A stretch of DNA of 54,428 nucleotides, from positions 1 to 54,428 of the IMG/VR virus record IMGVR_UViG_3300037193_000230; one strand, written 5' to 3'. The notes beneath the pieces were generated by a model, which worked only from the letters and a program-made list of their open reading frames with translations, ran no database searches and was not told where the DNA came from. This stretch comes from a virus. Numbering within the stretch: position 1 is the stretch's first letter; each line of letters starts with the position of its first letter. This document shows, piece by piece, positions 3,730 through 51,942 of the stretch. A program made the translations under genes and the position numbers.

Positions 3730-3802
3730 GCCCCTATAGTCTAGTGGCCTAGGACGCCGGACTTTCAATCCGGAAACACGGGTTCGAATCCCGTTGGGGG
3801 CA
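3730..3802 (+). tRNA. tRNA-Glu (UUC)
   Basis: Acceptor GCCCCTA pairs with TGGGGGC. The anticodon arm is CCGGA-CTTTCAA-TCCGG with anticodon TTC, and the T-loop is TTCGAAT. Discriminator A; CCA is not encoded. Confidence 0.95.
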
Positions 3803-3897
3803 CGTTGAGTGTGAGACGCTATAAACTACAAAGGGGTATGTCTATGAATTCCCCGCACACTCACGCTACCTAATCCAATTCTGTCAAAGGATTGAAC

Positions 3898-7088: not shown

Positions 7089-7328
7089 ATGAGCGACCGA
7101 CAGTTTCGCATCACCTTCCGCAAGGGGGGACAGACCAGGACCCTGGTCTACCCGGGGCACACCGCGTACGATGCGGAGAGGGATTTCACCACGGATCATC
7201 CCGACGCAGAGGTTCTTACGGTGATTGAGGACACCGTGTCGATTCGGAACACATTCAACGGCACGTCTTATGGTACGGTCAATCAGATGGGTGACGTTGA
7301 CGGAGACGTGAACTATTTCAGGGGGTAA
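7089..7328 (+). CDS. Small protein with RHIM/BASS3-like C-terminal motif
   Basis: A 79-residue protein with ATG one base after the previous stop. Residues 1-50 form a small beta/alpha domain. Residues 54-77 follow the pattern N-x3-G-x3-G-x-V-x-Q-x-G-x-V-x-G-x-V-x2-F. From established knowledge this is the pattern of bacterial amyloid signalling motif BASS3, related to mammalian RHIM and fungal PP motifs, which in actinobacteria link NLR-type sensors to cell-death effectors. A phage copy could jam such signalling, as herpesvirus RHIM proteins do, or trigger it. The function is an inference; the motif pattern is directly visible. Confidence 0.75.
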   Translation: MSDRQFRITFRKGGQTRTLVYPGHTAYDAERDFTTDHPDAEVLTVIEDTVSIRNTFNGTSYGTVNQMGDVDGDVNYFRG

Positions 7329-7881: not shown

Positions 7882-7955
7882 GCCCGTGTAGCTCAAAAGG
7901 ATAGAGCCAGGGTTTCCTAAACCCTAGGTTAGAGGTTCGAGTCCTCTCACGGGCA
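7882..7955 (+). tRNA. tRNA-Arg (CCU)
   Basis: Acceptor GCCCGTG/CACGGGC. Anticodon stem AGGGT/ACCCT with loop TTCCTAA, anticodon CCT at 7916-7918. T-loop TTCGAGT. No encoded CCA. Confidence 0.95.
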
Positions 7956-7956
7956 C

Positions 7957-12923: not shown

Positions 12924-14057
12924 ATGGTTTACCTGGACGATATCCTGAACACGGATCGTCTGGGCAGGGAAATTGCGGACGGGTACGTACGGGTGGGAGA
13001 CCACCCGTACTTGCCTCTCAACATTCTCTGCTACGAGCACAAAGCCATGATCGACCAGCATTGGACTCACGAGGTTCGAATGAGTCGTGGTCTGATCTAC
13101 GACGGTATCAGTCTCAAGGTTGTGGCCCGTCCGTTCGAGAAGTTCTTCAACCACGGTGAAGAGCACGCCCCGGAAATCCCCGCAAACACCCCTGTAAAGC
13201 TCTACGACAAGATCGACGGGTCGTTGGGTATCGTCTACCCCATTGCCAACGGCAAGTACGCGGTAGCCACCAAGGGGAGCTTCACCAGCGAGCAGGCTGC
13301 CAGGGGTACTGAGATTTGGCGGCGTGACTTCGAGGGACGGTTCCGACCTCCCAAGAACCTGACCATTCTGGTAGAGATCGTGTACCCCGAAAACCGGATC
13401 GTTCTGGATTACGGGAAGCAGGAGAAGTTGATCTTGCTAGGGGCGGTGGATATTGAAACCGGCCTGAGCTATTCTCCGGAAGACATCATTTGGTGGCCCG
13501 GTGAGAAGGCGGAGCAGGTAGGATCTGGCAGTTGGGGTTTCATTACCAGCAACCCGGATCTTCCAGTGTTCCATCGGCCCAATCGGGAAGGTGTGGTTGC
13601 TTGGTCGCCCACTCTGGATGTTCGGGTCAAGCTCAAGCAGGAAGACTACATCGAGAAGCACAAGGCGGTCTTCGGCCTCAACGAAAAGGCAGTGTGGGAC
13701 GCCTGGGATGAGAACCGGATCACGGAGTTCATCAACGGGCTTCCCGAAGAGGTTCAGGAGTGGGCAAGGGAGACCCACATGAAGTTTTGGGAGGAGCACC
13801 AGCGCAGGTTGGACCAGGTAGCCGACATCTGGGAATCCTGGATTGTCTGTGCTCAGGACTTCTCGTCGGACCGTGCCAACCGGGCCCATTTCGCCAACTG
13901 GGTAAAGGGTAGTGGGTGTGCACACCTCATCGAGGTGCATGGCAGGTGGCTGGAAGCAGCACTGTTCGCGCATTTCGATAGGGACTATTTGCGGGCGTCC
14001 AGCATCATCCGAAAGTCGCTTAAGCCGCATGGTCAGACCGAAAAGGCCAAGTGGTAA
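12924..14057 (+). CDS. RNA ligase, T4 Rnl1-like
   Basis: A 377-residue ATP-dependent RNA ligase that joins 3'-OH and 5'-phosphate RNA ends, classically to mend tRNAs cut by host anticodon nucleases. The nucleotidyl-lysine motif is KIDGS with Lys96. SRGLIYD (about 54-60) precedes it, an EIVYPENRIV segment lies downstream and DVRVKLKQEDY provides motif V with its lysines. The C-terminal third is helical, as in T4 Rnl1. It forms a repair set with the kinase/phosphatase at 14445. Confidence 0.88.
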   Translation: MVYLDDILNTDRLGREIADGYVRVGDHPYLPLNILCYEHKAMIDQHWTHEVRMSRGLIYDGISLKVVARPFEKFFNHGEEHAPEIPANTPVKLYDKIDGSLGIVYPIANGKYAVATKGSFTSEQAARGTEIWRRDFEGRFRPPKNLTILVEIVYPENRIVLDYGKQEKLILLGAVDIETGLSYSPEDIIWWPGEKAEQVGSGSWGFITSNPDLPVFHRPNREGVVAWSPTLDVRVKLKQEDYIEKHKAVFGLNEKAVWDAWDENRITEFINGLPEEVQEWARETHMKFWEEHQRRLDQVADIWESWIVCAQDFSSDRANRAHFANWVKGSGCAHLIEVHGRWLEAALFAHFDRDYLRASSIIRKSLKPHGQTEKAKW

Positions 14058-14328: not shown

Positions 14329-14445
14329 ATGGGTCAGACTGAAGATGAACTGAAGAAGGAACTGGAAAGGGTTCTCCAGGAAGAGGAGATGATCCAGAGG
14401 GACAACCCGATCACTCGCAAGAGCAAGGATGAGGAAGACGACTGA
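14329..14445 (+). CDS. Very small helical protein
   Basis: A 38-residue Glu/Lys-rich peptide from ATG 14329, coupled to the next gene by TGATG. The ribosome site is weak (AAGGAAAG, too far upstream). It could be a real small protein or a leader for the kinase gene. Confidence 0.45.
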   Translation: MGQTEDELKKELERVLQEEEMIQRDNPITRKSKDEEDD

Positions 14446-15359
14446 TGACCAGTCTTATTGTCACGGTGGGTTTGCCCGGGTCTGGAAAGACCCGGGCCGC
14501 CCGGTACATTCAGGAAATCGACACTCAGACTTGGGTGTTGGTTTCGCGGGACGACATCCGAGAGTCCCGCTTCGGAGCACACGGAATTCTTGATGGTCTG
14601 GAAGACATGGTCACCCAGTTCGAAGAGCAGGATGTCATTTCTGCTTTGAAGGCGGGTTTCAGTGTCATTGTCCACGACACCAACCTTCGGATGAGGTACC
14701 GCCGTAGGTGGCAGCAGATCGCAGACGAGTACGGAGCAACCTACGAGCAGATGGACTTCACGGGGGTGCCACTGGAGACGTGCTTGAAGCGTAACCAGGA
14801 GCGTGACCGCCAGGTTCCCGAAGCCGAAATCCAGAAGCTCCACCGCAAGTTCATCAAGCCCCTCAAGGGGCAGCCCATGCCGTACCCTGAGAGCGTCGCT
14901 GAGGCGACTTCAGGGGTGGTCCCTTACTCGGGTACCCCAGGAGCCCCCAAGGCCATCCTGGTGGACGTAGACGGCACGGTTGCTAAGATGAACGGAAGGT
15001 CACCCTTCGACTACTCAAGGGTGTCGGAAGACCTGCCCAACCAGCCCATCATCGACCTTGTGCGTGCTGCTCATTACGACTTGGGTTATAAGACCGTGTT
15101 CTTGTCGGGTCGCCCGGGTTCTTGTCGGGATGACACCGAGGAGTGGTTGTACGAGCACGTCAAGGTTCCGATCGAGCTGTTGGTCATGCGACTGACCGGG
15201 GATGGTCGAACCGACTACGTGGTCAAGCAGGAATTGTTCGACCAGCACATCCGAAACTACTACGATGTCCGCTGGGTCTTGGACGACAGGAACCAGGTTG
15301 TCAAGATGTGGCGTTCAATGGGTCTGACTTGTCTGCAAGTAGACGAAGGGGACTTCTGA
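14445..15359 (+). CDS. pseT: Polynucleotide kinase/phosphatase (T4 Pnkp-like)
   Basis: A 304-residue two-domain RNA-end healing enzyme. The kinase domain has P-loop GLPGSGKT (9-16) and SRDDIRES with Arg35 and Asp36. The phosphatase domain has the haloacid-dehalogenase motif DVDGT with Asp174 and Asp176, an SGRP motif and a WVLDDR motif. It removes the 3' phosphate and phosphorylates the 5' end so that RNA ligase can seal. Domain order and length match T4 Pnkp. It lies in the same operon as the Rnl1-like ligase. Confidence 0.9.
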   Translation: MTSLIVTVGLPGSGKTRAARYIQEIDTQTWVLVSRDDIRESRFGAHGILDGLEDMVTQFEEQDVISALKAGFSVIVHDTNLRMRYRRRWQQIADEYGATYEQMDFTGVPLETCLKRNQERDRQVPEAEIQKLHRKFIKPLKGQPMPYPESVAEATSGVVPYSGTPGAPKAILVDVDGTVAKMNGRSPFDYSRVSEDLPNQPIIDLVRAAHYDLGYKTVFLSGRPGSCRDDTEEWLYEHVKVPIELLVMRLTGDGRTDYVVKQELFDQHIRNYYDVRWVLDDRNQVVKMWRSMGLTCLQVDEGDF

Positions 15360-27823: not shown

Positions 27824-27924
27824 GTGCGTGTGAACACCTTATGTGGCGTAGGGGCAGCAACGGAAGCATTGTTTGTGCGGACTGTGGAGAAGTCATTTCC
27901 AAGGGGAGGTCTTGTCATGAGTGA
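27820..27924 (+). CDS. Mini zinc-ribbon protein
   Basis: A 34-residue protein from GTG 27820 with a four-base overlap. Cys4-x-His6 and Cys19-x2-Cys22 (CADCGEV) form a typical one-zinc ribbon. It overlaps the start of the second RNA ligase. Confidence 0.6.
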   Translation: MSACEHLMWRRGSNGSIVCADCGEVISKGRSCHE

Positions 27925-28648
27925 TATCGACACGTTTGGTGAGTTCAAGAAGTGGGGTTCCACTCCGCGCTTCCACAAGGGTCTTCATATCACGATGAAG
28001 ATTGACGGTACCAATGGGGGTGTCAGTGTCGAGTTCGTAGAGCCGGCCGACATTTCCTGGCATTACTCGGGTCAGATTCCGGAGGATGCGATCTGGGTTC
28101 CCGCGTGGGTGGATGGTGAGCCCCACAAGGAGCTGGGCTACCTGGTCCGTGCTCAGTCCCGTAAGCGGATCATCACGCCTACCAACGACAACTTCGGCTT
28201 TGCCAGGTGGGTGTGGGACAACGCCGAGAAGCTTGCCAATCTCCTGGGAATGGGCTACCACTACGGTGAGTGGTACGGTGAGGGCATCCAGGGCAACCCC
28301 ATGGGCGTTGCAGGCCGAAAGTGGGCACTGTTCAACACCTGGCATTGGGCGCGTCCTGAGAACGCCATTGCTCTGAAGAACAGCGGCATCCCGGGCATCA
28401 CGCATGTTCCGGTTCTTCATGACGAGCAGATCCACGGTCCGGCCGACTACACCACGATTCCTAACATCATGCTGGACCTTCCGATGTTGGGCGACCTGGT
28501 GGATGGTTACCGTACTCACCCCACGTCCCGCAAGATGGACAGCCACATGGTGAAGGACCCCGAGGGTATCATCGTGTGGCACCGGGAGACCCAGCAGAAG
28601 TACAAGATCCTTCTGCACAACGATTCTCTTCACAAGGGGCAGCAGTGA
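27917..28648 (+). CDS. Second RNA ligase (Rnl2-like nucleotidyltransferase)
   Basis: A 243-residue protein with GGGGAGG before ATG 27917. Motif I is MKIDGTN with Lys28. GEWYGEGIQG matches motif III, and EGIIVWHRETQQKYKI gives motifs IV and V with their Glu and Lys. It lacks a clear C-terminal domain, so it is shorter than T4 Rnl2. Together with the Rnl1-like enzyme at 12924 the phage has two distinct RNA ligases, perhaps for different break types. Confidence 0.8.
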   Translation: MSDIDTFGEFKKWGSTPRFHKGLHITMKIDGTNGGVSVEFVEPADISWHYSGQIPEDAIWVPAWVDGEPHKELGYLVRAQSRKRIITPTNDNFGFARWVWDNAEKLANLLGMGYHYGEWYGEGIQGNPMGVAGRKWALFNTWHWARPENAIALKNSGIPGITHVPVLHDEQIHGPADYTTIPNIMLDLPMLGDLVDGYRTHPTSRKMDSHMVKDPEGIIVWHRETQQKYKILLHNDSLHKGQQ

Positions 28649-30091: not shown

Positions 30092-30343
30092 ATGCCCAGG
30101 AAGGAACCCAAGGGCGGCTTCATGCACGGCTCCAGCGGATACGACAACTACGGATGTAGGTGTGATGTCTGCCGTGCGGGTAATGCTGCCAAGCAGAAGC
30201 GTATTCGAGAAAGCAACCGTGAAGAGCGGGAGTTGGTTGACGGGGTATGGGTTCACCCGCTGGCCACACATGGCACACTGACTGGTTACCAGTACTACAA
30301 GTGCCGTTGTCGGGATTGTACACGAGCATCAAGGGAGGCGTAA
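30092..30343 (+). CDS. CRC-motif zinc protein, copy 1
   Basis: An 83-residue basic protein with CTAGGAGG. Two internal repeats of His-Gly-x2-Gly-Tyr-x4-5-Cys-Arg-Cys-x2-Cys, each suited to one zinc. Its paralogue lies at 30600. Proteins of this type are frequent in actinophages; function unknown, nucleic-acid binding likely. Confidence 0.78.
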   Translation: MPRKEPKGGFMHGSSGYDNYGCRCDVCRAGNAAKQKRIRESNREERELVDGVWVHPLATHGTLTGYQYYKCRCRDCTRASREA

Positions 30344-30599: not shown

Positions 30600-30857
30600 A
30601 TGGCTAAGTTCACTCATGGTGCGGCTGGGTACAACAACCATCACTGCCGATGCGACGTATGCAAAGCAGCCAACGCCGAACGTATCAGGAATCATCGTCT
30701 CCGTAACGGGGACGAACGGGAAGATTCTAATGGGACGATGGTACACCCTCTAGCCCCGCACGGAACTGTCAACGGCTACATTAATTACATGTGCCGTTGC
30801 TTTCCTTGTCGAAACGCACACTACAACGACAGGAAGAATCGAAAGGAGAAGGAATGA
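30600..30857 (+). CDS. CRC-motif zinc protein, copy 2
   Basis: An 85-residue paralogue of 30092 with the same double repeat: HGAAGYNNHHCRCDVC, then HGTVNGYINYMCRCFPC. GGGGAGG is very close to the ATG. The pair is split by two small genes, suggesting an old duplication. Confidence 0.75.
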   Translation: MAKFTHGAAGYNNHHCRCDVCKAANAERIRNHRLRNGDEREDSNGTMVHPLAPHGTVNGYINYMCRCFPCRNAHYNDRKNRKEKE

Positions 30858-34809: not shown

Positions 34810-37224
34810 TCAACCCCAAATGAAAGTAGGTGTGTCCCAACGACCCATCAGCGGATCGTCCCAAATACCGGCTGGCCTACGGGATAGTTCGACAGAATAG
34901 GTGTCGGTAAGACCGGTTTCCACATCGTAGACCCGATCAATGCTGTACACCTGGACATCGAACTGAGACCCGAAACCGTCCGGGTCGACAATACGCAAAG
35001 CGTCTGCCAACTGAATGCGGGGATCTCCCGCCATGGAAACCTGCGTTGTGGTCGGCACGGGGTAGCTCGTCCGGTTCAGCATAGTGTCGAGCAAGCCCGC
35101 GTTGTTGCTGAACTCCTGATGCCACTCACTGTTCAGTAGCATGTTGCGTCCCTGGAAGCGGTCGATAGAGGCCGTATCCTTGACGGAGAGCGCCTGAGAG
35201 CCCTCATCCTGTAGGAAGGTACCCCGGACCCTGAAAGCGGGCTGTGTGTCGCTGATAGCCAGCCTTGCGGGGAAGCCGTATCCGTTCCAGATGTCGACTA
35301 CCACCTCACCGAAGGCGTTGAGATAGCACCTGATGTCCACACCCGAGATGAAGTCGGCCCGCTCCTCCCAGACAGCCCCGGTGAACCACTGGACCACATA
35401 GCCGAAGTTGACCCACTCGTCCCAGGTTGCGCTGGTGTATCGGGTAACCTGTCCCGGGTCGATATTGGCCACGTTGTCGTACCAGAGCCGGAATGTCCGG
35501 TTGGTACCGGCAGGTGTATAGAACTGGTCGGCTCCTTCGGCGTCGATTACCGTGTTGAACACCGCAATCTTTCGGTCGGCATCCAAAGTCCAGATGTTTC
35601 GTACCGAATCCAACGTGTTGGTGATGCTAAGCCCGGTCAACTGGTCCAGGTGAACCTCTCGTACAACACTTCCGGCCTTGGCCTGAACGGTTTCACGGTT
35701 CCAGAATCGGAAAATACCCGACTCATCCCAGAAAGCAGCTCCGAACTCGGCTCCGACTACTGCGGAAATCACATCCCAGGCATCGGTACCATTCACGTCG
35801 GGCTGGAAACTCAGCCGGTTCAGCCCACGGTCCAGAGAAGCCGCATAGGTCGACTGCCTTCCGGCCCATGGCACAAAGAAGTCCGGATCTACACCGCTAC
35901 TACCAAACTGGGTAGCCGTCCAAAAGATATCCTGCATGGGAACCTTACGGTATGTCCATACAAAACCCTTCAGGTTGTCTCCCACGAATGGGTTAGTCAG
36001 AATTGTTCCTGTGTTCGTCCAGGAAACGCCCGAAGTATTCGACCCAGCCTGTACCCATACACGGGCACCCGAGGGGTGGAACGCATCCCAAATAACAATC
36101 ATTCGGAAAGCATCGCCCGAAGTGGGAATGGTCACCTTGGGGGAGGTTACAGTCTGAACCGGAGATGCACTCTTCCAGATAGACCAGAACTTACCGGTGT
36201 CACCAATCCACAGCTCCAGGTTACATTCGTCTCCAAGGTCGATATCCATGACCTTGAAATCAGGGGCCGTCTTGTAGTAGTCACCATTGGTGCCACGGGC
36301 CACCAGAGTGAACCCTGCGACCTGGACACCGTTCTTGTTCAGGGTCTGACGGTTCAAAGCCGAGTAGACAAGGGTCTCATCGGTGCCTGAGCCCACGCCT
36401 GCGAGGTTCATCGGGCGTACCCCGTCTGTTACCCCTGGATGAGGCCAGCCCTGCTGCTCGTACATCTGAGCGCCTGTTGCCTCGGTGTTGGGGAACTCCT
36501 GTTCGGGGTAGTTGTTGATCCACCCGATACTCGGAATCCATCCACCCACGCCTGAGACCCATAGCTGAGGACCAGTAGGGTCATCATCGGCCAGTCCGTT
36601 CTCTTCACGAGTGGCCGGACGGAAAGGGGTCGGGGACACGTCAGACGACTTGAGGCAGTGGTCGATGATCCATTCGGACCCCACCAACTGGCCTTCAACC
36701 CTGCCCTGAACGATGCGCTGGTAATCGTACATGGCCCAGAACGGGATCTGAACAGGACGACGAAGCTTTTCCACGCGGTCAAGGGCTGTCAGACCTACGT
36801 AACCGCTGCCTCGGTTGGGGCTTGTCTCCCTGACCTGGCCCACGAACTGAGGATACCAGACAATTCCCAGAGCAGTCTCGACACCCAAGTCATAAATGAC
36901 TTCGACACCCACGGTGTCCTTGCCCCAGAAGATGGAATCAGGCTGATACGGAGAGAACACCTTGAACAGGGGTACGTTGTTGTGATACCCCGAAAGCTGG
37001 ACATCCAATTCGGCCGCCGAAGCCCCCTCGATAAGAAGAATTTCTTCCGGGGCCGAACCACGGAGGCTTCGACGGGTAGTGACGTTCTTGATGAACTTGG
37101 ACATGTCGGACAAAGCATGGGAAAAGGCCCCGTCATTGTTCCAATCGACCCTCAGCCTGGGGATAAACCTTCTCTCCGGCGACAGAATCGCATCGTTTGC
37201 GGCTGTGCCGCCATGAGTCTGCAT
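34810..37224 (-). CDS. Minor tail protein, tail-tip hub
   Basis: An 804-residue protein. Its first 150 residues (VDWNNDGAFSHALSDMS..., then a LTALDRVEKLRRP segment) follow the actinophage minor tail protein plan. The centre has a lectin-like beta domain and the end returns to a hub-like fold. It follows the tape measure and distal tail genes as expected of a tip component. Possible host-wall contact. Confidence 0.8.
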   Translation of the reverse strand: MQTHGGTAANDAILSPERRFIPRLRVDWNNDGAFSHALSDMSKFIKNVTTRRSLRGSAPEEILLIEGASAAELDVQLSGYHNNVPLFKVFSPYQPDSIFWGKDTVGVEVIYDLGVETALGIVWYPQFVGQVRETSPNRGSGYVGLTALDRVEKLRRPVQIPFWAMYDYQRIVQGRVEGQLVGSEWIIDHCLKSSDVSPTPFRPATREENGLADDDPTGPQLWVSGVGGWIPSIGWINNYPEQEFPNTEATGAQMYEQQGWPHPGVTDGVRPMNLAGVGSGTDETLVYSALNRQTLNKNGVQVAGFTLVARGTNGDYYKTAPDFKVMDIDLGDECNLELWIGDTGKFWSIWKSASPVQTVTSPKVTIPTSGDAFRMIVIWDAFHPSGARVWVQAGSNTSGVSWTNTGTILTNPFVGDNLKGFVWTYRKVPMQDIFWTATQFGSSGVDPDFFVPWAGRQSTYAASLDRGLNRLSFQPDVNGTDAWDVISAVVGAEFGAAFWDESGIFRFWNRETVQAKAGSVVREVHLDQLTGLSITNTLDSVRNIWTLDADRKIAVFNTVIDAEGADQFYTPAGTNRTFRLWYDNVANIDPGQVTRYTSATWDEWVNFGYVVQWFTGAVWEERADFISGVDIRCYLNAFGEVVVDIWNGYGFPARLAISDTQPAFRVRGTFLQDEGSQALSVKDTASIDRFQGRNMLLNSEWHQEFSNNAGLLDTMLNRTSYPVPTTTQVSMAGDPRIQLADALRIVDPDGFGSQFDVQVYSIDRVYDVETGLTDTYSVELSRRPAGIWDDPLMGRWDTPTFIWG

Positions 37225-43664: not shown

Positions 43665-44627
43665 CTACCAATTTTCGACCAACCTTTCAATCGACTCGAC
43701 CCAACGGGCGAGTTCCGGATTTGGGTCCAATTCTGCGGACCTCTTCAGGGCCAGTCGGGAAGCCGCGTTCCAATCGGTATCGTTCAGGAGTTGTAGAATA
43801 GTAGCTTCGTACCCGTTCTTGTCGTCCCGGTCCACGAAAAGACCGAACGGACCCTGCGATTCCTTGAGACCCGGAGTGGGGTGGGCAATAACCGGGATTC
43901 CCGACGCCAACGCTTCGACTCCGGCCATACCGTAGGACTCATAGATACTCGGCATGAGAAGAATACGGGTCTTGGACCAGACGTTCTCCTTCATGTCAGG
44001 GGTGTGTTCCTGGATCTCCACGTTGGGAAGGTCCCTACGGATGATCTGCTCACCATGACCGCCTACCACGCCCAGGAATTCGACATCCGGCATGGATTCG
44101 GCCAGGCTGTAGAACAACCCGGACCCCTTGTTGGCGTTGAGGTTGACCAGAGTCACCTTGTCGCCCGGACTTGTCTTGTGCTCTTCCGGAAATACAGGAG
44201 GGTGGATCACCACAGAGTTCATGCCTGGCTTTTGGAGCTTCTTTTGAATCCATTCTGTATTGAACACCACCAACGAAGGCCCGAACCCGAGGTGGGTCTG
44301 GACACCCGCCATGTCGTTATGGCAGATGAAGACCCAGGGGATTCCCAGCTTTCGGGCAATCTGGGCTGTGTAGACCGTGTTGTCGTGGTGGGTAATGATC
44401 AGGTCGGGTCGCCAGGCTTGGATGTTCTGTCGTCCGTAGACCACATTGGTTGTGAGGACATCCACATCTTCGTAGGTGTAGCTCATAGGGGCTTCCGGGA
44501 GTACCGTAGCCACCACGGCCACATCGTGACCCGCCTTCTGAAGGGCCTTGACCATTGCATGGAGCATGGTTTCCGACCCGGCATTACGATAAGGCACGTA
44601 AAAGTGCACGAACACTGCGATTCTCAT
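43665..44627 (-). CDS. Glycosyltransferase, GT4-like
   Basis: A 320-residue GT-B enzyme with AAGGAG. N-terminal HFYVPYRNAGSETMLHAMVKAL with the Gly-Gly-type acceptor loop replaced by Asn-Ala-Gly, and the C-terminal nucleotide-sugar motif PSIYESYGMAGVEALASGIPVIA, with the Glu-x7-Glu pair. It lies just after the capsid gene, so it may glycosylate capsid or tail proteins. Substrate sugar unknown. Confidence 0.88.
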   Translation of the reverse strand: MRIAVFVHFYVPYRNAGSETMLHAMVKALQKAGHDVAVVATVLPEAPMSYTYEDVDVLTTNVVYGRQNIQAWRPDLIITHHDNTVYTAQIARKLGIPWVFICHNDMAGVQTHLGFGPSLVVFNTEWIQKKLQKPGMNSVVIHPPVFPEEHKTSPGDKVTLVNLNANKGSGLFYSLAESMPDVEFLGVVGGHGEQIIRRDLPNVEIQEHTPDMKENVWSKTRILLMPSIYESYGMAGVEALASGIPVIAHPTPGLKESQGPFGLFVDRDDKNGYEATILQLLNDTDWNAASRLALKRSAELDPNPELARWVESIERLVENW

Positions 44628-44710: not shown

Positions 44711-45709
44711 TTAGCTACCCGAAGGGTTTGTCAGCTTCACAAACGCATCCAGGTCACCAACCACCCAGCCGAATGTTACTTCGACCAGGAGCGCAACCTG
44801 GTTCGTCTGCCACATGGAAACGGTGTTTACTCCGTCAGTCAGTGTGGCCTGGTCGCTGATCTTGTAGCGGATCTCGTCCGCGAATCCCCAACGAAGCTGC
44901 GAGAAGTCTCCACCGATGATTCGAGTCGGAGTAGCCGTAGCCGCTCCGAGGTCACCACGTACGGCACGGCCGTAGTATGACGGGAATCCGAGGATGTTAC
45001 CCACAGTGCCATTGAAGTTGATACCGGCCGGGTTGACCAGGTTACCATTCGCGTCACGCTCCGCACCCTCACGGATCAGTCGAGCACGGAAACGAGGGTC
45101 AACCGCCCAACCGTCGAAGTCGAACTCACCAGCCGACGCCATTTCGTACGCCGTGATTAGCTCGTCATAAACGGAGTTGGTTGTGTCCGCGTCCATGTCG
45201 ACCACGTTGGCCGTGTTGTTCAGAACGTTGTCTGTGTCGATACCCTGAAGAGCCGCCCCTGTGTCAGGACGCTTTCCGTGGAATACAGCCAGGTCGATAC
45301 CGCGACCAATCGCGAAAGCCAGGTCGTTCTGGAGCTTGGTGTAGAAACCCTGTGGGTTGGTACGCGCAAATTCCTCGGACACGGTCACGATAGTGGCCAG
45401 CTTGATCGGGCTGAACGAACGGCTGTCCCACGCAGTACCGCTCAGCGGCTTGAGGCCACCTTCACGGAGAGCGTTGGTAGTACCAGTACCTACCTGGCCT
45501 ACCTCAGGACGACGAGTAGTCACCGGAATGACAGTCTCACCATAAGAAACCGGGATTCGCTCACCCAGCCGAAGAACCAGGGATGTCTCCTGGGCCTTCT
45601 CGAAAATCGGGCCTACGATCGTCTTGGGCAGTAGATCGTCAGGCACATACGCAAGTCGCCCCTGGTGGTAATCAGCGGTATTCGGGGCGAGTTCGTTAAT
45701 CATTGCCAT
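44711..45709 (-). CDS. Major capsid protein
   Basis: A 332-residue HK97-fold capsid protein. LLPKTIVGPIFEKAQETSLVLRLG, then VPVTTRRPEVGQVGTG and SPIKLATIVTVSEEFART are the classical N-terminal and E-loop/P-domain landmarks. No N-terminal delta domain, consistent with the separate scaffold gene upstream. AAGGAAA precedes the ATG. Confidence 0.94.
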   Translation of the reverse strand: MAMINELAPNTADYHQGRLAYVPDDLLPKTIVGPIFEKAQETSLVLRLGERIPVSYGETVIPVTTRRPEVGQVGTGTTNALREGGLKPLSGTAWDSRSFSPIKLATIVTVSEEFARTNPQGFYTKLQNDLAFAIGRGIDLAVFHGKRPDTGAALQGIDTDNVLNNTANVVDMDADTTNSVYDELITAYEMASAGEFDFDGWAVDPRFRARLIREGAERDANGNLVNPAGINFNGTVGNILGFPSYYGRAVRGDLGAATATPTRIIGGDFSQLRWGFADEIRYKISDQATLTDGVNTVSMWQTNQVALLVEVTFGWVVGDLDAFVKLTNPSGS

Positions 45710-50085: not shown

Positions 50086-50130
50086 GCCTGCTCTCCTTGT
50101 CGTCTTAATGGTGACTGAAACTTCGAAACG

Positions 50131-50204
50131 TCAGACTGGGAGGATTCGAACCTCCGACCCCGTCCTTCCAAGGGACTCACTCTGCCTGGCTGAGCTACAG
50201 TCTG
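50131..50204 (-). tRNA. tRNA-Pro (UGG)
   Basis: Minus strand CAGACTG/CAGTCTG acceptor, anticodon loop CTTGGAA (TGG), T-loop TTCGAAT. Its 5' end overlaps the last 10 bases of the zinc-ribbon gene. Confidence 0.9.
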
Positions 50205-50344
50205 TCTGGGTAAATCTTCTGCTTCAATACGTGTCCACAGTTCTCACACTTGGTGATGGAACCCACCACCTTTTCAGGGTCTTGCTCGTGCCGTATTTCT
50301 TCTACGGCGGTCTTACGCATTTTGCACTTCGGACACTTCTGCAT
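50195..50344 (-). CDS. Zinc-ribbon protein inside the tRNA cluster
   Basis: A 49-residue protein from ATG 50344 with AGGAGG upstream. CPKCK near residue 4 and CENCG near residue 34 form a classic zinc ribbon. It is the only protein gene in the tRNA cluster, and its end overlaps tRNA-Pro. Possible RNA or polymerase-binding factor. Confidence 0.75.
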   Translation of the reverse strand: MQKCPKCKMRKTAVEEIRHEQDPEKVVGSITKCENCGHVLKQKIYPDRL

Positions 50345-50346
50345 TG

Positions 50347-50419
50347 TGCCTCCTGAGGGAGTCGAACCCCCACTGATCACGTTCTAAGCGTGATGCCTCT
50401 TCCGTTGGGCTAAGAAGGC
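50347..50419 (-). tRNA. tRNA with Leu anticodon (UAG) but class I body
   Basis: Minus strand GCCTTCT/AGGAGGC acceptor, anticodon arm TCACG-CTTAGAA-CGTGA, T-loop TTCGACT. The anticodon UAG reads CUA, but the variable region is only five bases, whereas bacterial tRNA-Leu carries a long arm. Charging identity is therefore uncertain. Confidence 0.8.
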
Positions 50420-50420
50420 G

Positions 50421-50491
50421 CAGGGACACTCCGATTTGAACAGAGACTAATCGGGTTGGAGCCGATCGTTCTACCGTTAAACTATATCCCC
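50421..50491 (-). tRNA. tRNA-Trp (CCA)
   Basis: Acceptor GGGGATA/TGTCCCT with two G-U pairs. Anticodon arm ATCGG-CTCCAAC-CCGAT, anticodon CCA. Discriminator G as in bacterial tRNA-Trp. Confidence 0.9.
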
Positions 50492-50495
50492 ATGG

Positions 50496-50566
<71 letters not shown>

Positions 50567-50587
50567 GCTGGTTGCCCAGTGTGACGC

Positions 50588-50658
50588 TGCCCGCCAAGGA
50601 TTCGAACCTTGACTTCCTGGTTCAGAGCCAGGTGTGCTGCCTTATTACACAAACAGGC
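50588..50658 (-). tRNA. tRNA-Gln (CUG)
   Basis: Acceptor GCCTGTT/GGCGGGC with three G-U pairs, anticodon arm CCTGG-CTCTGAA-CCAGG (CTG), T-loop TTCGAAT. Confidence 0.9.
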
Positions 50659-50665
50659 ATTGGAA

Positions 50666-50740
50666 GTACCGTACTTTGTCCCGGAGACCCGGGTCCGGTT
50701 GATCAATCCCGGTTGGATTATACCGCTTTGAATACGGTAC
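50666..50740 (-). ncRNA. tRNA-sized RNA-like element, possibly a decayed tRNA
   Basis: An 8-bp closing stem GTACCGTA/TACGGTAC encloses 59 bases with hairpins AATCC/GGATT and CCCGG/CCGGG. Its length of 75 and its place between tRNA-Gln and tRNA-His fit a tRNA, but no seven-base anticodon loop or TTCRA T-loop exists. Confidence 0.4.
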
Positions 50741-50744
50741 AGCG

Positions 50745-50816
50745 CTTGGATGATGGGATTCGAACCCACAATGGCCGGGATCACAACCCGGTGCTTTACC
50801 GTTAAGCTACACCCAA
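50745..50816 (-). tRNA. tRNA-His (GUG)
   Basis: Acceptor TTGGGTG/CATCCAA, anticodon arm CCGGG-TTGTGAT-CCCGG (GTG), T-loop TTCGAAT. The base before position 1 is T rather than the G(-1) normally needed by histidyl-tRNA synthetase. Confidence 0.88.
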
Positions 50817-50819
50817 AAT

Positions 50820-50909
50820 GGCGGAGAGAAAAGGAATCGAACCTTCAGGCCCACGGGGTTCCTGGCACGGATTAGCAATCCGCTTTGACACCTTGTCGCT
50901 TCAATCCGC
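50820..50909 (-). tRNA. tRNA-Ser (GCU)
   Basis: Class II tRNA: anticodon arm GCGGA-TTGCTAA-TCCGT (GCT), long variable arm with paired CC/GG segments, T-loop TTCGATT. The acceptor stem is imperfect (five pairs, GCGGA/TCCGC), so the ends are approximate. Confidence 0.75.
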
Positions 50910-50911
50910 AG

Positions 50912-50992
50912 AGGAGGGTAAAGGACTCGAACCCTCGGGTATCACCCCGGCCCGGTTTTCAAGACCGGTTTGCCGCCTTGGCGCTACCCTCC
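50912..50992 (-). tRNA. tRNA-Ser (UGA)
   Basis: Acceptor GGAGGGT/ACCCTCC, anticodon arm CCGGT-CTTGAAA-ACCGG (TGA), long variable arm, T-loop TTCGAGT. Confidence 0.9.
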
Positions 50993-50999
50993 ATTGAAG

Positions 51000-51073
51000 T
51001 GGCCCCGGTAGGATTCGAACCTACGACCTACCGATTAAGAGTCGGCAGCTCTGACCTACTGAGCTACGAAGCC
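51000..51073 (-). tRNA. tRNA-Lys (CUU)
   Basis: Acceptor GGCTTCG/CGGGGCC, anticodon arm GCCGA-CTCTTAA-TCGGT (CTT), T-loop TTCGAAT. Confidence 0.92.
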
Positions 51074-51162
51074 AGGGGCTGGCCCACAAAGGCCCTTAAT
51101 AAACAGCCTTGAGCCTAACGCACACCGCGTGCGGACGGTTTAACGTATGCACCGACAACTCG
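51074..51162 (-). other. Inter-tRNA spacer with hairpins
   Basis: No tRNA can be folded here. The spacer holds GGCTG/CAGCC enclosing a GGCC stem, and CGCAC/GTGCG. These may be processing signals or the remains of a lost tRNA. Confidence 0.4.
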
Positions 51163-51237
51163 TGCACGCCCCAGGTTTCGAACCTGGCACCTTCGCTTCA
51201 TCAGAGCGATGCTCTAACCTAAATGAGCTAGGCGCGC
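51163..51237 (-). tRNA. tRNA-Ile (GAU)
   Basis: Acceptor GCGCGCC/GGCGTGC, anticodon arm TCGCT-CTGATGA-AGCGA (GAT), T-loop TTCGAAA. Confidence 0.9.
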
Positions 51238-51238
51238 G

Positions 51239-51309
51239 TGGGTCCACAGGGAATCGAACCCTGATCTACGGTGTGTAAGACCGCTGCTCTCCCGTTGAGC
51301 TACAGACCT
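51239..51309 (-). tRNA. tRNA-Val (UAC)
   Basis: Acceptor AGGTCTG/TGGACCC, where A1-C72 does not pair. Anticodon arm GCGGT-CTTACAC-ACCGT (TAC), T-loop TTCGATT. Confidence 0.88.
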
Positions 51310-51313
51310 AAAG

Positions 51314-51387
51314 AGCCGCTTGAGGGACTTGAACCCACAACCACCTGTTTACAAGACAGGTGCTCTTCCAAATTGAGCTAAAACGGC
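51314..51387 (-). tRNA. tRNA-Thr (UGU)
   Basis: Acceptor GCCGTTT/AAGCGGC, anticodon arm CCTGT-CTTGTAA-ACAGG (TGT), T-loop TTCAAGT. One T-stem mismatch. Confidence 0.9.
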
Positions 51388-51462
51388 AAACCGACAAATT
51401 ACGGGATTGTCGTCAAACCGGAGGGTTTCCTACTCTTGGATTTTAACCCACAAACTAACCCG
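51388..51462 (-). other. Inter-tRNA spacer of tRNA length
   Basis: A 75-base gap that holds hairpin CGACAA/TTGTCG (51392-51412) and a GGGTT/AACCC pair, plus a D-arm-like TAGTTTGTGGGTTA word on the minus strand. No closing acceptor stem. Probably a decayed tRNA. Confidence 0.35.
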
Positions 51463-51535
51463 CTGACCTAACAGGATTCGAACCTGTACCTAAGGGATTA
51501 ACAGTCCCTTGCACTACCTATTGTGCTATAGGCCA
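51463..51535 (-). tRNA. tRNA-Asn (GUU)
   Basis: Acceptor TGGCCTA/TAGGTCA, anticodon arm AGGGA-CTGTTAA-TCCCT (GTT), T-arm ACAGG-TTCGAAT-CCTGT. Discriminator G. Confidence 0.92.
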
Positions 51536-51539
51536 TTGC

Positions 51540-51591
51540 GGAGTCCACCCTTGGGCACGTTATGCCCCCGTAGGCCGCGTTTAAGGACTCC
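51540..51591 (-). ncRNA. Mini tRNA-like element
   Basis: A perfect 7-bp stem GGAGTCC/GGACTCC closes 38 bases that contain hairpin GGGCA-TAACG-TGCCC. At 52 bases it has the acceptor and one arm of a tRNA only. It sits between tRNA-Asn and tRNA-Asp in regular spacing. Confidence 0.4.
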
Positions 51592-51594
51592 AAG

Positions 51595-51666
51595 CGCAGA
51601 CGACGGGATTCGAACCCGCGCCTCCCGGCTCGACAGGCCGGTATTCTTCCGCTGAACTACGTCTGC
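51595..51666 (-). tRNA. tRNA-Asp (GUC)
   Basis: Acceptor GCAGACG/CGTCTGC, anticodon arm CCGGC-CTGTCGA-GCCGG (GTC), T-loop TTCGAAT. Discriminator G as expected for Asp. Confidence 0.93.
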
Positions 51667-51670
51667 ATTG

Positions 51671-51744
51671 CCGGAACACCTGGAGTCGAACCAGGGACAC
51701 GCCGAGCTTCAGTCGGCTGCTCTACCATCCTGAGCTATATTCCG
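51671..51744 (-). tRNA. tRNA-Phe (GAA)
   Basis: Acceptor CGGAATA/TGTTCCG, anticodon arm GCCGA-CTGAAGC-TCGGC (GAA), T-loop TTCGACT. Discriminator reads G instead of the usual A. Confidence 0.9.
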
Positions 51745-51767
51745 TGAGCCGGGGGACGGCTCTTGAG

Positions 51768-51841
51768 TTGCCCCGACAGGATTTGAACCTGCGACTACCC
51801 ACGTTCGTAGCGTGGTGCTCTGTCCGCTGAGCTACAGGGCA
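51768..51841 (-). tRNA. tRNA-Arg (ACG)
   Basis: Acceptor TGCCCTG/CGGGGCA, anticodon arm CCACG-CTACGAA-CGTGG (ACG), T-loop TTCAAAT. It decodes CGU, and CGC/CGA if A34 is deaminated by the host. Confidence 0.92.
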
Positions 51842-51869
51842 TAGGGGACGCTAACAGGGGATGCCTGCG

Positions 51870-51942
51870 TGGGGAGAGGTGGATTCGAACCACCGAGAAT
51901 GAGCTTATGAGACTCAGAGCTAATGCCTCCGCTTTTCTCCCC
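51870..51942 (-). tRNA. tRNA-Met (CAU)
   Basis: Acceptor GGGGAGA/TCTCCCC, anticodon arm TGAGT-CTCATAA-GCTCA (CAT), T-loop TTCGAAT. Elongator type is likely; an Ile2 tRNA with modified C34 cannot be excluded. Confidence 0.88.

Follow-up and report, generated by a model that had tools for sequence, protein, structure and literature searches.

Does a small phage protein whose tail resembles bacterial amyloid signalling motifs carry a genuine motif of this kind, and if so, would the phage use it against its host? In bacteria, such motifs are found at the N-termini of NLR proteins and at the C-termini of small partner proteins, according to PMC7889193. The protein in question, P0001, is encoded by the virus record IMGVR_UViG_3300037193_000230, which was analysed over its whole length of 54,428 bases (the window). 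An initial annotation, made from the letters alone, had described its tail as a BASS3/RHIM-like motif of which no phage example was known.

The virus and the small gene

With an identity of about 66%, the terminase of the window resembles its counterparts in Rhodococcus phage RGL3 and in mycobacteriophages such as Theia; the capsid protein shares 70% identity with mycobacteriophages, the DNA polymerase 64% with M. abscessus prophages and the Cas4-like exonuclease 46% with Fromanvirus Goose and Rerduovirus Phrankenstein. By these identities the virus is classed as an actinophage. We call it cluster-A-like ('cluster A') and one part of it the 'right arm'; both labels are our own. Inspection by eye of the region between the arms revealed no integrase. 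As no lysin B gene was noticed from the amidase to the terminase gene, the host may be one without mycolates.

P0001 lies amid many small ORFs on the same strand (Table 1). Its packing between same-strand ORFs, with gaps of only 1 nt after the upstream stop codon and 3 nt before the next start codon, makes a real gene very likely. The coordinates 7089-7328 in the initial annotation were right, as the plus-strand translation gives 79 aa. The Fic-domain protein encoded two genes upstream is matched over part of its length by PADLOC PDC-S04 and SoFic. Neither this protein nor the Cas4-like exonuclease had homologues in the viral contigs when searched with exact peptide patterns, which reach close relatives only. 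P0001 likewise had none by the same kind of search, with the same reach. Moreover, it matched no Pfam family at E<=10, no PHROGs family and no PADLOC model, and tblastn against phages gave nothing convincing, only four rows of Cronobacter tail fibres with E=2.

Table 1. Coordinates of P0001, its neighbours and parts, and other viral carriers of the motif
Feature	Coordinates	Strand	Basis or remark
Fic-domain protein (HPFQDGNGR), two genes upstream of P0001	6372-6869	+	Pfam PF02661, E=2.7e-9
65-aa ORF, no function assigned, directly upstream of P0001	6890-7087	+	ORF list
P0001, 79-aa small gene	7089-7328	+	ORF list and translation
Residues 4-48 of P0001, predicted beta-beta-alpha-beta domain	7098-7232	+	AlphaFold2, single sequence
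Residues 51-79 of P0001, predicted unstructured C-terminal tail	7239-7325	+	pLDDT mostly <50
Residues 54-77 of P0001, BASS2-type amyloid-signalling-like motif	7248-7319	+	exact pattern
54-aa ORF, no function assigned, directly downstream of P0001	7332-7496	+	only sub-threshold matches
G447 97-aa protein (L239/L250, IMGVR_UViG_3300044999_000013)	L250 1691-1981		C-terminal motif HVTGHVTGTVIQAGNIDGGVRL
Three adjacent G448 microproteins, 63, 49 and 56 aa	L249 4862-5513		
L166 (G450) NACHT protein	L166 3610-5757	opposite to flanking terminase and portal genes	N-terminal motif NEITGSVRGNVLQIGNMYGDV

Predicted structure of P0001

The best AlphaFold2 model of P0001 reached pLDDT of 78-92 by ten-residue block over residues 4-48. 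The fold, a beta-beta-alpha-beta domain with an unstructured tail, is tentative because the other four models were poor (mean pLDDT 42-46) and no alignment exists; since the tail was also modelled without an alignment, its low confidence is expected anyway. The best structural match was T7 Gp2 (4lk0_M, Z 6.3, rmsd 1.4 over 49 residues, 14% identity), which is weak (Foldseek E 0.18), and the likeness may merely reflect a common arrangement. The same arrangement as in the N-terminal 50 residues occurs in p56 and YkzG, and further matches were ribosomal proteins and many unrelated proteins; those in the virus structure library were small and mostly unnamed phage proteins. Homology with Gp2, or a role as a Gp2-like inhibitor of RNA polymerase, is not claimed, as values of Z below 8 are common. 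To our knowledge, T7 Gp2 does not have such a C-terminal tail.

The maximal 19-residue hydropathy of P0001 is -0.02, so it has no hydrophobic stretch, and the best value of 20 bacterial proteins with the motif at the C-terminus is 0.43-2.00. Thus, P0001 lacks signs of the Bell domain (helical, with a hydrophobic helix), as judged by hydropathy and predicted fold as proxies for a Bell profile.

Family of the tail motif

Residues 54-77 of P0001, NTFNGTSYGTVNQMGDVDGDVNYF, end 2 residues before the C-terminus and fit the pattern N-x3-G-x3-G-x-V-x-Q-x-G-x-V-x-G-x-V-x2-F exactly. The initial annotation was correct in this pattern and in the C-terminal position, but its assignment to BASS3/RHIM was wrong. 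The published BASS3 peptide of Frankia ORT49035.1 (VDLRDAKGVQVGDGNVQINRF; PMC8086366, table 2) has VQ[VI]GDxNxQxN in common with 11 instances from Streptomycetaceae, which come from 7 of the 61 genomes searched. P0001 scored -2.1 bits on a BASS3 model of these sequences (p ~0.18), on which its shuffles reach 18.7 bits, and the core (V/I)Q(V/I)GDxNxQxN with two Gln seven apart is missing, as it has Q66 but D73. The direct model score and the absent core rule out this identity. No Pfam family matched at E<=10; the HMMER filters drop weak matches, and a RHIM model may or may not be among the families searched. The BASS3/RHIM/PP motifs are coupled to NLRs or necroptosis, and what P0001 shares with them is a short Gly/Gln-containing, putatively amyloid motif with Q-x-G-D.

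The pattern of P0001 belongs to a separate actinobacterial motif, NxxSGxxxGxVVQA[RG]xIxGGV, which is probably BASS2, a type from the work of Dyrka et al. 2020 as relayed by PMC7889193, PMC8086366, PMC9815663 and PMC12261475. The label 'BASS2-type' was chosen because the three-mer 'ARD' is stated in PMC9815663 to occur in BASS2 C-termini; the name depends on this one statement.

To describe the bacterial family, we used the pattern above without the final F and with [GR] and [VI] allowed, as bacteria vary. It matched once in each of 6 genomes among 296 Actinomycetes and 18 times in 17 of 150 Streptomycetaceae genomes, and the reversed pattern as a control gave 2 and 0, respectively. Because two genomes (G098 and G199) are common to both sets and one match was counted twice, these are 23 distinct loci (L142-L164). 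By eye they all form one motif family, and Q-A follows V-x in all of them. In 20 loci the motif starts within the last 50 residues of a small protein, and it is N-terminal in the other three, two of which (L143 and L146) precede NB-ARC domains and one (L145) has no assigned domain. This layout is that published for bacterial amyloid signalling sequences (PMC7889193), and the likeness of the P0001 tail to an actinobacterial NLR-associated motif, also proposed initially, was borne out by the same pattern before NB-ARC domains and at small-protein C-termini.

A profile (A1) was built from 16 of the 23 motifs. At E<=0.05 it matched 12 genomes in a set of 98 and 5 in a set of 21, with some genomes in both counts, and the weakest of these matches are probably chance; the matches include two neighbours in G098, an NB-ARC protein (6013071, L185) and a small protein (6015478). 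Motif-only tblastn found six actinobacterial records among plasmids as a positive control and nothing among phages, where queries of 23-27 aa are insensitive.

P0001 has the BASS2-type spacing N-x3-G-x3-G-x-V-x-Q-x-[GR]-x-[VI]-x-G-x-[VI] at the C-terminus of a small protein, and its lead-in 'SIRNT' resembles SVRNS and SVRNT of L147 and L158. On the other hand, it differs from the bacterial sequences by being phage-encoded, by the lack of a hydrophobic helix and of any NLR noticed nearby, and by reading V-N-Q-M at the position of the invariant Q-A (N-Q-M for V-Q-A). Q-A is also absent in two viral proteins, L166 (NACHT, Q-I) and L167 (Q-S).

Strength of the match

P0001 scored 16.1 bits with A1, 15.2 bits with a profile of all 23 motifs and 11.0 bits with an independent model of 12 motifs, and shuffles of P0001 scored as high 0, 1 and 5 times per 200,000, respectively. 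The training motifs of the former two were found with the initial pattern and are circular at its fixed positions. The independent model consists of 12 hand-chosen A1 matches that do not fit this pattern, registered on V-Q-A, with the other rows left out. Over all comparisons, P0001 reached 14.4-17.7 bits with pattern-selected profiles and 10.4-11.7 bits with the independent one. The E-value of A1 in the 54 kb record was 2.8e-4 (17.7 bits), and P0001 ranked first of 20,179 viral ORFs with the 23-motif profile (E=0.026). Because of the pattern controls, the shuffles and the E-value in the record, the match exceeds chance within the window. By our own estimate, about 1e-6 per protein multiplied by tens of millions of proteins makes it not exceptional across the whole virus collection.

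The A1 survey covered 26,029 six-frame ORFs. They came from 157 viral sources: the window, loci chosen because they match part of the motif, two phages fetched for the exonuclease, and additional stretches from G447 and G448. The top scores were 35.7 (L167), 33.0 (L165), 30.9 (L239), 21.9 and 18.0 (L205/L249, the same DNA) and 17.9 (L166). The window, with 15.3, stands below these six genuine-looking ORFs (>=17.9) and above the best noise (13.5, in a noise class of our own definition), so P0001 scores lowest among the putative viral motif instances. With the independent model in the same survey, the window (10.4) is inside the noise, which reaches 17.0; the score of L239 likewise drops, to 12.9, and the matches listed do not include L166. 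A 33-aa frame, L230, scored 13.5 with A1 and 17.0 with the independent model, and was taken as noise as it is not convincing as a gene.

DNA patterns were also searched in a viral collection of 2.9 million contigs. The strict pattern gave three other matches, all of them genuine-looking. Among the 17 matches to the relaxed pattern, 4 seem genuine and 13 look unrelated (e.g. tape-measure-like proteins), and V-[VI]-Q-A gave 19 with two genuine-looking ones (L165 and L239). A loose core pattern occurred in at least 120 stretches, mostly by chance; L003, with the loose core near the C-terminus, is among the matches listed. Taken together, the match of P0001 to the BASS2-type motif is suggestive and borderline on sequence grounds, and we lean towards a genuine motif in the window.

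Other viral carriers of the motif

The initial remark that no phage example was known was not borne out, since other viral contigs carry the BASS2-type motif more clearly than P0001. One is the 97-aa protein of G447, which scored 30.9-33.9 bits on the motif profiles. The G447 record (41.7 kb) is a tailed-phage contig with portal, capsid and WhiB by Pfam, and the gene is perhaps early, as its place is close to WhiB and at a distance from the structural genes. Its model is helical with low confidence (mean pLDDT 50.8, and below 50 in the last 26 residues), and searches for its homologues gave nothing convincing. The maximal 19-residue hydropathy (0.97) is inside the bacterial range, and by this likeness the protein may act as an effector and not as a decoy.

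G448 (L205/L249) is a phage-like element of 58.8 kb with terminase and portal. It encodes three adjacent microproteins, preceded by the Shine-Dalgarno-like sites AGGAGG, AGGAAGG and AAGGAG. The first two are little beyond the BASS2-type motif, and the third has only partial likeness (TVVQAQ). In three further contigs the motif is N-terminal: L166 encodes a NACHT protein, which looks like a defence moron, and L165 and L167 encode small proteins, the former adjoining a portal gene. Among the papers listed by searches of an open-access library without bioRxiv preprints, none was on phage-encoded BASS motifs, and the word 'phage' does not occur in PMC7889193 and PMC12261475.

Possible roles of P0001

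If the motif is real, the likeliest role of P0001 is that of a decoy of the host NLR-effector amyloid relay, because P0001 has no hydrophobic helix, no partner NLR was noticed and no integrase was recognised. P0001 would then be a small phage protein with a beta-beta-alpha-beta domain and a flexible C-terminal BASS2-type motif. Through this motif it would join assemblies formed by the matching motif of NLR sensors of the host, of their small partner proteins, or of both. It would cap or divert the growing amyloid and thereby keep the death effector from acting, much as necroptosis is held back by herpesvirus RHIM proteins. Amyloid formation by the tail, contact with a host partner, and blocking in preference to triggering are all inferred. 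VZV ORF20 (PMC7375649) and HSV ICP6 (PMC12133306) are precedents of viral RHIM proteins. What they would have in common with P0001 is a host-type amyloid relay motif encoded by a virus, and they differ in the motif family and in the host, which is bacterial for P0001.

With the doubt about the motif included, the decoy is a plausible reading somewhat short of an even call. It is favoured by the exact pattern and its C-terminal placement, as in 20 of the 23 bacterial loci, by the ranks among viral ORFs with the 23-motif profile and A1, by the lack of a hydrophobic stretch, by the viral RHIM precedents and by the clearer instances in G447 and G448. It is disfavoured by N-Q-M in place of Q-A, the lowest viral score, the position inside the noise with the independent model, the partly circular training motifs and the lack of any P0001 homologue found that would show conservation, and for the G447 instance by its effector-like hydropathy. 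A resemblance by chance has about the same likelihood as the decoy. In that case P0001 would be one of the usual small phage proteins, its N-terminal domain either Gp2-like or of a generic beta-beta-alpha-beta type and its real job an unrelated host takeover by this domain, and the disordered tail, rich in Gly, Asp and Val, would fit the pattern by accident. The middle-ranking score in the A1 survey, the noise-level score with the independent model, the 13 unrelated-looking matches among 17 of the relaxed pattern, the estimated frequency over the whole virus collection and the best folds (T7 Gp2, YkzG, ribosomal proteins and small phage proteins, most of them without a name) all fit this explanation. 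However, the strict pattern had only three other matches in the viral collection, all genuine-looking, the tail is where most bacterial loci have the motif, and the lead-in matches those of L147 and L158.

A trigger or defence role for P0001 is less likely than the decoy, and the G447 protein may have such a role. As defence cargo, P0001 would be adaptor or effector to an NLR of the host or of a prophage, and would help to exclude competing phages or trigger suicide. The NACHT protein with its N-terminal motif between terminase and portal genes, the small N-terminal-motif proteins in two more viral contigs and the moderately hydrophobic helix of the G447 protein, as in the bacterial proteins, speak for such cargo. 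For P0001 itself we consider it unlikely: by eye no NLR was noticed among window ORFs of at least 200 aa, no adjacent NLR or effector gene shares the motif, the profile search found a single copy in the window record, the hydrophobic stretch is lacking and a benefit to a lysogen is not evident as no integrase was recognised. Slightly more improbable still is self-assembly for a purpose of the phage, such as a scaffold or condensate, unrelated to host immunity. A short motif with a small domain could polymerise alone, and the G448 microproteins come as an adjacent set, but the motif family goes with NLRs and small partner proteins in the bacterial loci examined.

Extended beyond P0001, the decoy reading would mean that actinobacterial phages and phage-like elements deploy small proteins and bare-motif microproteins with BASS2-type motifs to jam host NLR-to-effector relays. 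Such a class would be a prokaryotic counterpart of the viral RHIM decoys, with the window (weak motif, no hydrophobic helix), G447 (clear motif, decoy or effector) and G448 (bare-motif microproteins) as candidates. We regard this generalisation as possible but rather doubtful, and rate it slightly lower because the G447 protein may have an effector helix. Phage copies of the motif would be an expected mark of an arms race and ready-made tools for testing, and the G447 and G448 instances keep the idea testable even if P0001 is a chance match.

Other features of the window

Besides P0001, the window encodes two RNA ligases (PF09511 and PF09414) and a PNKP-type kinase/phosphatase (12924-14057, 14445-15359 and 27914-28648), and 18 tRNA genes, 16 of them in one cluster (3730-3803, 7882-7956 and 50130-51942). 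Together these may serve the phage to repair and replace its tRNAs in the face of tRNA-cutting defences. In the structural region, an 804-aa protein (34813-37224, minus strand) had no tblastn match at E<=1e-5 in 50,697 phage records, in contrast to the terminase and capsid protein of the same window, which are 66-70% identical to known ones. The gene for the major capsid protein (44711-45709) is followed directly downstream by one for a GT4-family glycosyltransferase (43665-44627, minus strand), a possible sign of virion glycosylation. Moreover, two similar-looking small Cys-rich ORFs stand in series at 30092-30343 and 30600-30857.
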